DNA of 35,577 bases, taken from NCBI GenBank assembly GCA_005792635.1, contig SXRF01000023.1:1-35577 (forward strand). The letters run 5' to 3'. Every line of letters begins with the position of its first letter. Position 1 is the first letter of the stretch. This DNA comes from Rickettsiales bacterium (GTDB taxonomy: Bacteria; Pseudomonadota; Alphaproteobacteria; Rickettsiales; SXRF01). The translations under genes and the position numbers were made by a program. This document shows, in pieces, positions 30,716 through 32,601 of this stretch. Below the pieces are notes generated by a model, which made no database searches, was not told the DNA's origin, and saw nothing but the letters and a program-made list of their open reading frames with translations.

Positions 30716-31288
30716 ATGGCAAAAAAAGAAAAAGCGGCAACTGAAGAAGAAGACAAAAAAGCTACTGGTGATGCTGGGGCTGGCGCAGAAGGCGCGGAAG
30801 GTGCTGAGGGCGTTGCACCGAAAAAATCGAAGAAAAAATTGATTATAATTGCCGCCGCCGCCGTTTTGTTGATTGGTGGCGGAGTTGGCGCATTTCTTAT
30901 GACCTCCAAGGGCGGTGAAGAACACGCCGAAGGCGGCAAGGAAGCTGTTGAGCTTGATGAACATGGAAACCCAATAGTAAATGCCGCAGTATATTACACT
31001 CTGCCAGAGTTTTTGGTTAATCTAAACGGTTCGGGAAAATCTTCAGTTTTCCTAAAAACCACCGTGGTTTTGGAAGTAACCAAACAAACTGATGTCCCTG
31101 CTATTGAGTCGTCTTTGCCGCGCTTAGTGGACGGCATTAACACTTACCTGCGCGAACTGCGCCCGAGCGATGTTGCTGGTTCAGCGGGAATTCAAAGGCT
31201 GCGTGAGGAAATTTTGCTGCGCGTAAATAAAGCGATTGCACCAAAACAAATTAATGATGTGCTGTTTAAGGAAATCGTCGTTCAATAG
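30716..31288 (+). CDS. fliL: Flagellar basal body-associated protein FliL
   Basis: N-terminal charged segment, single TM (LIIIAAAAVLLIGGGVGAFL), YYTLPEFLVNLN...FLKTTVVLEV...LREEILLRVNKAI...INDVLFKEIVVQ. Confidence 0.9.
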   Translation: MAKKEKAATEEEDKKATGDAGAGAEGAEGAEGVAPKKSKKKLIIIAAAAVLLIGGGVGAFLMTSKGGEEHAEGGKEAVELDEHGNPIVNAAVYYTLPEFLVNLNGSGKSSVFLKTTVVLEVTKQTDVPAIESSLPRLVDGINTYLRELRPSDVAGSAGIQRLREEILLRVNKAIAPKQINDVLFKEIVVQ

Positions 31289-31454
31289 GTTCAGTTCATA
31301 AATTCTACTATAGCTTGCTGCAAATGGCAGTTTCCTGCGCGTACCAAAGCTCATGTACTTAGTGTACACTGCGCTACGGTTCTCGGAAACCACCATATTG
31401 GCTTCGCCGCCCTTCGGGTCGCTTGCGCCATAGCGAATTTATGAACTGAACCTA
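31286..31454. repeat. MITE-like element with perfect 20-bp terminal inverted repeats
   Basis: TAGGTTCAGTTCATAAATTC (31286-31305) and GAATTTATGAACTGAACCTA (31435-31454). 169 bp, immediately downstream of fliL. Confidence 0.9.
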
Positions 31455-31491: not shown

Positions 31492-32601
31492 ATGAGACTT
31501 CCGTGGACATTATCGCGCTATATTGGTAAGCATTTTTTGCTGGCGATTTTGCTTGCTCTTGTCTGCCTTCTCGCCATTACTTTGCTAATTGATATTGTGG
31601 AAATGATCCGCCGCGCTTCGGGGCGCGGTGGTGTTCCTTTTCAAATAATTTTATCTCTATCGCTGCTTAAACTTCCCAGTTTTGCTGAAAAATTGATGGC
31701 TTATGCGGTGCTTATCGGCAGCATGGTGGCTCTTACCCGCCTCACCCGCACACAAGAGCTTATAATAGCGCGGGCATCTGGAGTTTCCGTGTGGCAGTTT
31801 TTATCGCCAGCAATGGCGGTGGTATTCGCACTTGGCGTGTTTATGACCACTATTTTCAACCCATTCTCTTCGGCTCTTATGATGCGAAATGAGCAGTTGG
31901 AAGGAAAATATATCGCAGGAAACACTAGCTTGCTTGCCGTTTCGTCATCTGGTTTATGGTTGCGCCAGATGGAGGATGACAAAAACAATAATATCAGCGA
32001 GCATATAATTCATTCCGCCAAATTGCTGCAAAATGATATGTCATTTGCGAAGGTAATGATTTTTTCTTTTGATAATGATAAAAAATTTGTGGAACGCTTG
32101 GATGCCGACCATGCAGTGTTAGGTGCAGGAGTTTTGCATTTAAGCAGTGTGGTACGCTCTGTGCCTGCCAAGCCTACGGAGAATTTGGCGGAGTATAGCC
32201 TGCCTACCACGCTGACTATGGAGCATATCCAAGATAGTTTTGCCTCACCAGAAACTATGTCATTTTGGCATTTGCCGAGCTTCATAAACATGCTGGAAGA
32301 GGCTGGCTTTTCCGCGCTAAAACACAAGCTATATTGGCATAGCTTGCTCGCCAGTCCGTTTCTTCTTGTCGGCACGGTGTTGATCTCTGCGGTATTTTCC
32401 CTGCGTTCACCACGCCGTGGGAAAATCGGTGTTTTGGTAGTATCAGGCGTTGTCGTCGGGTTTTTATTGCATTTCTGCACAGATATTATCTTTGCTTTCG
32501 GCGCAAGCGGTACGATACCTGTCATCCTTGCGGCATGGACACCAGCAGCAATAGTAATCATGATTGGCGTCGCGCTGCTTCTGCATTTAGAAGATGGCTA
32601 A
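31492..32601 (+). CDS. lptG: LPS export ABC transporter permease LptG (YjgP/YjgQ family)
   Basis: LSRYIGKHFLLAILLALVCLLAITLLIDIVEMIRRA...FAEKLMAYAVLIGSMVALTRLTRTQELIIARASGVSVWQFL; C-terminal TM cluster. Confidence 0.88.
   Translation: MRLPWTLSRYIGKHFLLAILLALVCLLAITLLIDIVEMIRRASGRGGVPFQIILSLSLLKLPSFAEKLMAYAVLIGSMVALTRLTRTQELIIARASGVSVWQFLSPAMAVVFALGVFMTTIFNPFSSALMMRNEQLEGKYIAGNTSLLAVSSSGLWLRQMEDDKNNNISEHIIHSAKLLQNDMSFAKVMIFSFDNDKKFVERLDADHAVLGAGVLHLSSVVRSVPAKPTENLAEYSLPTTLTMEHIQDSFASPETMSFWHLPSFINMLEEAGFSALKHKLYWHSLLASPFLLVGTVLISAVFSLRSPRRGKIGVLVVSGVVVGFLLHFCTDIIFAFGASGTIPVILAAWTPAAIVIMIGVALLLHLEDG

Follow-up and report, generated by a model that had tools for sequence, protein, structure and literature searches.

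The window (the whole 35,577-nt stretch of DNA analysed) carries fliL and, downstream of it, an LptF/LptG permease gene, and a palindromic, MITE-like element occupies the space between the two (Table 1). A preliminary description had proposed a 169-bp element with perfect 20-bp terminal inverted repeats (TIRs) that begins on the TAG stop codon of fliL, and this proved to be real; the chance expectation for such an inverted pair is ∼3e-7 in the 801 bp scanned. The 169 nt folded far more stably than dinucleotide shuffles on both strands (z −6.2 for the plus strand and −9.2 for the minus strand). The Pfam FliL match extends to the last residue of the ORF at 30716–31288. Because it contains an extra inner hairpin of ∼20 bp, the copy is 169 bp long rather than the usual 147–149 bp; the same variant was seen in copies L014, L016, L025 and L029, as well as in L177 of G066, a genome of another genus. 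No U-tract was found directly 3′ of the hairpin, and Rfam 15 gave zero matches above the gathering score anywhere in the 35,577-nt window. The peptide previously read from the minus strand is present in the translation, but its frame has a stop near the 5′ end and is not open throughout, as had been supposed.

Table 1. Features at the fliL stop codon. For the element, the + orientation is the one that places its left end on the stop of the gene upstream.
Feature	Position	Strand	Remarks
fliL	30716..31288	+	TAG stop (31286-31288) from the element; orthologues stop at the same codon
Palindromic MITE-like element	31286..31454	+	169 bp; family norm 147-149 bp
Left terminal arm TAGGTTCAGTTCATAAATTC	31286..31305		Perfect 20-bp inverted pair with right arm
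Left TA	31286..31287		Putative copy of the target-site duplication; positions 1 and 2 of the fliL stop codon
Apical core CTCATGTACTTAGTGTACACTGCG	31350..31373		Most conserved part of the family; common to subfamilies with different arms
Extra inner side hairpin GGCTTCGCCGCCCTTCGGGTC	31400..31420 (bounds approximate)		Recurrent variant
Right terminal arm GAATTTATGAACTGAACCTA	31435..31454		Perfect 20-bp inverted pair with left arm
Right TA	31453..31454		With the next base, A, reads TAA, presumably the original fliL stop
LptF/LptG permease gene	31492..32601	+	Downstream of the element; not beside fliL in same-genus relatives

Copies in the host genome and the class

A BLAST search with the 169-bp query returned 51 matches in the 1.95-Mb host genome (G000). 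Re-counting with a covariance model (R1), built from 35 copies, added further ones, resulting in ∼59 copies, mostly 147–149 bp in length; 59 were examined with their flanks. The subfamilies added by R1 have in common only the apical motif CTCATGTAC..GTACACTGCG and the hairpin layout. Features by which MITEs are recognised (<200 bp, TIRs, dispersed copies) are found here, with ∼59 copies and a 20-bp TIR. Together with the TA duplication at filled and empty sites (see below) and a fliL-lptG neighbourhood that is not conserved in relatives, this supports the earlier MITE-like designation; the lack of conservation also speaks against the region being conserved intergenic DNA specific to fliL-lptG. 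Over all copies, 66 core frames were open on the plus strand versus 26 on the minus strand, and most copies had few or no frames free of stops.

Other repeats were noted in the flanks of several copies. An AT-rich repeat (GGAAGTGGAAAAAA..CAGCGTTTTT..TTAAAGTAAAAA.CGGT) lies ∼80–100 bp to the right of three of them (L012, L020 and L023), another dispersed repeat with the motif GTCATTGCGAG..GCAATCCAG occupies the right flanks of L002 and L005, and the right flank of L018 contains an inverted repeat (GTCATGCCCGCC..CGGGATGACG).

The family is alphaproteobacteria-wide. The DNA query matched 23 of 57 relatives from many families of the order, and R1 matched 18 of 192 genomes of the class under strict filters. 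Carriers included plasmids of Sphingobium, Shinella, Agrobacterium vitis, Allorhizobium, Phyllobacterium and Ensifer, along with environmental Alphaproteobacteria/Rickettsiales MAGs, and no element was found in phages. Two very IS-rich genomes of the same order, G021 and G026, gave zero element copies in the DNA search; G026 had >100 IS630-type and 131 Y1 transposase matches.

Hairpin structure and strand polarity

Members of the family form hairpins over their full length; the tip is conserved, and the arms vary in sequence yet remain complementary. Among the 35 copies, 32 of the 59 consensus pairs showed double-sided changes, and the arms contained 184 compensatory cells versus 59 in shuffles. 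The covariation score was 0.246 versus 0.108 when shuffled (0 of 500 shuffles were as high), a comparison biased towards the structure, as the consensus was derived from the same 35 sequences, but slid controls gave ≤0.08. Between genera, too, each of the dissimilar arms TAGGATGTGTGGGG, TAGGATCGAACGCC and TGAAAGTCTGTCCC was paired with its own complement. The two strands are not equivalent. In 135 of 139 copies the strand opposite the stop-hosting gene folded better, by ∼10 kcal/mol, and the minimum free energy (MFE) structures held 607 G-U pairs on this minus strand versus 214 on the plus strand, with some wobbles at fixed positions.

Location at stop codons

Within the host genome, the left end lay inside the stop codon of an upstream ORF (≥100 codons) in 22 of 59 copies, and the other end in 4. 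The corresponding background was 2.5%, since 14 of 551 non-ORF TA dinucleotides near the sites belonged to a plus-strand stop (p ∼3e-20 for the left ends). The prediction that further copies would end other genes at TAG is therefore strongly supported. Left and right ends were at stops 9 and 0 times in G066, and 44 and 7 times over all groups (p ∼1e-7). Not all members of the family show this trait: it was weak or absent in G074, G195 and G242, where copies lie mostly beside genes.

Genes hosting a copy at their stop include argC, recR, tldD/pmbA, dgkA, ftsA and those for a HAD hydrolase and the ATPase inhibitor zeta. Comparison with relatives indicates that these stop codons are native and that the proteins are probably unchanged. 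Same-genus fliL orthologues, none with the element, read GTTCAA followed by TAA, TAG and TAA, respectively; recR orthologues lacking it read TTT (or TTC) and then TAA in 3 of 3 cases, and the stops of argC and of a TOBE-domain gene are native by the same comparison. Pfam domains extend to the C-terminus in RecR, TldD/PmbA, DagK and FliL. Furthermore, the protein accession (WP_071206076.1) is identical between A. vitis strains that carry the element and those that do not.

Filled and empty sites

Insertion takes place at TA with duplication of the TA, which answers the earlier suggestion to test for target-site duplications and is clearest at two Sphingobium sites. In strain MM7A, L248 reads CCCTT-TA-AGGTTG...CAACC-TA-AAGCGCG, and TYG73 and TYG72 have TT-TA-AAGCGCG without the element (site CCCTT-TA-AAGCG); it is also absent at this position from the more distant TYG65 (80% identity). 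At L250, the filled C-TA-GGGCCG...CGGCCC-TA-AGGGG compares with an empty C-TA-AGGGG in TYG46. The dgkA site of the host genome (L041), compared with G002, is compatible with TA duplication, and it is from these three sites that the left TA in the window is read as a duplicated target. Clean empty sites are few, the clearest being in plasmids of other genera, and the genomes are drafts.

Other comparisons were less straightforward. In A. vitis, the stop on the left of the element is TGA, a poor fit to simple TA duplication, which may reflect later mutation or deletion; the 'empty' strains may themselves be deletions, as the filled CG78 looks sister to them. The Phyllobacterium comparison (L113) was too diverged for placing the junction. 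In Sphingobium TYG72, TYG73, TYG74, TYG64 and TYG46 (L209–L211, L213 and L217, respectively), remnants of the left arm (TAGGATGTG) are joined to the right flank at differing points. On these grounds we rejected the reading of the 'empty' sites at L115 as arms derived from the target; the remnants suggest repeated, independent deletion of the palindrome. TYG73, TYG74 and TYG64 have another repeat inserted at the same stop codon.

Candidate transposases

No IS with the own-genome element ends (GGTTCTG) was found, and the high-copy IS630-type IS of the host has different ends (TATAGTGACTTT / TATAGTGACTTTATTTAAC). This IS (ends TATAGTGACTTTATTTAACAATTATAC) was found at no fewer than 15 contig ends of G000 (e.g. 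L261–L282), where it probably breaks the draft assembly. IS630-type ends were seen in the G074 subfamily: its elements end in TATAGTCATTCCA / TATAGTCATTCCACTTTAAA and have 13 identical bases with an IS630-type IS of G066 (TATAGTCATTCCAAAACAAA). These ends and the TA duplication lead us to infer that IS630/mariner-type transposases act in trans. The presence of the Y1, RVT_1 (reverse-transcriptase) and DDE_3 (IS630-type) families did not track with that of the elements. PF01797 (Y1) had no match in 7 of 10 element-bearing genomes (G066, G001, G003, G010, G038, G042 and G242), RVT_1 had none in G000 or G066, both of which carry elements, and several element-bearing genomes had no match to IS630, Y1 or reverse-transcriptase families.

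Origin of the element and alternative explanations

Taken together, these data make it probable that the sequence after fliL is a copy of a non-autonomous, palindromic MITE, found throughout the Alphaproteobacteria, that inserts at TA, duplicates it and here entered the TA of the fliL stop. The element would have inserted into a TAA or TAG stop (TA|A), which would give TA-G at the left junction and TA-A at the right one. Its first base beyond the TA is G (or A), so that a stop (TAG) would be remade on the left, with FliL unchanged and the insertion tolerated. TA-specific transposases of the IS630/mariner type would move the element in trans, and its hypervariable outer arms may follow whichever transposase is available. 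Against this account are the missing IS with GGTTCTG ends, the carriers with no IS630, Y1 or reverse-transcriptase match, and the A. vitis TGA. Furthermore, a TA target is symmetrical and does not by itself lead to the 44:7 orientation bias. We favour the hypothesis that the bias arises mainly through selection on the effect of the hairpin on the upstream mRNA. Selection against having the better hairpin in that mRNA is suggested by the ∼10 kcal/mol advantage of the opposite strand and by ERIC, in which destabilisation of upstream transcripts depends on the orientation of the element (PMC2229807). A strand-specific insertion mechanism is possible as well.

The latter is the core of an alternative that we regard as unlikely, namely that a structured minus strand, as RNA or single-stranded DNA, is the mobile form and inserts with polarity at TAR stops by a mechanism unlike that of known TA transposases (HUH/IS200-like single-stranded DNA transposition or target-primed reverse transcription at a nicked stop). 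It would accommodate the orientation bias at stops, the lower energy and more numerous G-U pairs of the minus strand, and the purine (A/G) directly after the right TA, found as well in 24 of 33 copies away from stops (p 0.014). However, Y1 and RVT_1 are missing from carriers as listed above, and TA duplication is the product of TA-specific DDE transposases. If insertion were aimed at stops, evolution would have provided the element with a harmless place to land at almost every gene end.

A conserved, functional 3′-end RNA element (a terminator or mRNA stabiliser) that is kept in place rather than mobile is much less probable, even though the frequent 3′-end location and the strong base-pair covariation would fit it: same-genus orthologous genes lack the element, gene neighbours differ, filled and empty sites occur between close strains, and the hairpin has no U-tract after it.

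Membership of the Rickettsia palindromic elements (RPEs), whose hallmark is in-frame insertion into coding sequence, had been suggested from the appearance of the minus-strand peptide, and size and palindromic form are indeed similar. A search for in-frame copies was also rewarded once: L148 (G000:C7:3818-3965) forms an in-frame insert of ∼51 residues in an ORF of 725 codons whose product is an O-antigen-ligase-like membrane protein (assigned by inspection), and the insert is missing from the orthologues in G001, G002, G003 and G007. Homology is nevertheless very improbable. NCBIfam RPE profiles did not match the translated peptides at E ≤10, RPE1 had zero matches in the genome, tblastn of the peptide gave zero matches in the plasmids, and no long ORF continues through 58 of the 59 copies. 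The family does once what RPEs do often, and is not filed as an RPE.

Least credible is that copies truncated their upstream genes, with TAG arising incidentally where the element inserted at random into the 3′ ends of coding sequences; six own-genome copies do end their gene at +13 to +17, inside the arm and in other frames, but orthologues stop at the same codon and the four Pfam domains named above extend to the C-terminus.

Comparison with known repeats

The open-access literature searched, with subscription papers mostly outside the search, held no description of the element. Its unusual traits are oriented residence in native stops, a covarying hairpin found across the class, and strand polarity. 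A mobile hairpin that occurs across the class and prefers native stops in a measurable and oriented way offers a natural experiment in how selfish DNA spares its host. Arms that change quickly yet stay complementary make it a testable question what reads the structure (a transposase, RNase or RNA partner), and some orphan hairpins and unusual C-termini annotated in Alphaproteobacteria may be due to the element.

Rhizobial intergenic repeats such as RIME1 are likewise palindromic and alphaproteobacterial, and RIME1 copies exist on pSymA and pSymB of Sinorhizobium meliloti 1021. R1 found zero copies on those two replicons, a possible difference at the level of model matches. CIR is also an alphaproteobacterial intergenic repeat with long stem-loops, but has GANTC (CcrM) methylation sites and no terminal arms, whereas GANTC is depleted in the 59 own-genome copies (0.10 per copy versus 0.55 expected, with none in 54 of 59). 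REPs are palindromic extragenic repeats as well (GTAG-type, REP/RAYT) and are moved by Y1 transposases, whose presence does not track the elements here. REP units are also shorter, at 20–40 bp (PMC3733652). RPEs are palindromes of ∼150 bp in Alphaproteobacteria that insert in-frame in genes (PMC10969869); the present family differs in lacking a profile match and in having 1 of 59 copies coding, versus a large share in Rickettsia.

The enterobacterial ERIC (IRU/RU-1) resembles the family: it is a palindromic MITE of 127 bp that lies between genes, has TA at its ends and duplicates TA, occasionally forms in-frame fusions at the C-terminus and affects upstream mRNA according to its orientation (PMC2229807, PMC2759123). 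It differs in its core; the family had no match among 20,395 E. coli records (blastn, E 0.01), and the excerpts of these papers do not report a systematic stop-codon location for ERIC. The pneumococcal RUP is a small element with a TA target and ends common with IS630-Spn1, by which it was proposed to be moved in trans (PMC2229807), a situation comparable to that of the G074 subfamily. In the host genome, however, the element ends are unlike those of its IS630-type IS, and the arms are long and covarying. In its behaviour, this palindromic bacterial MITE comes nearest to ERIC and RUP.
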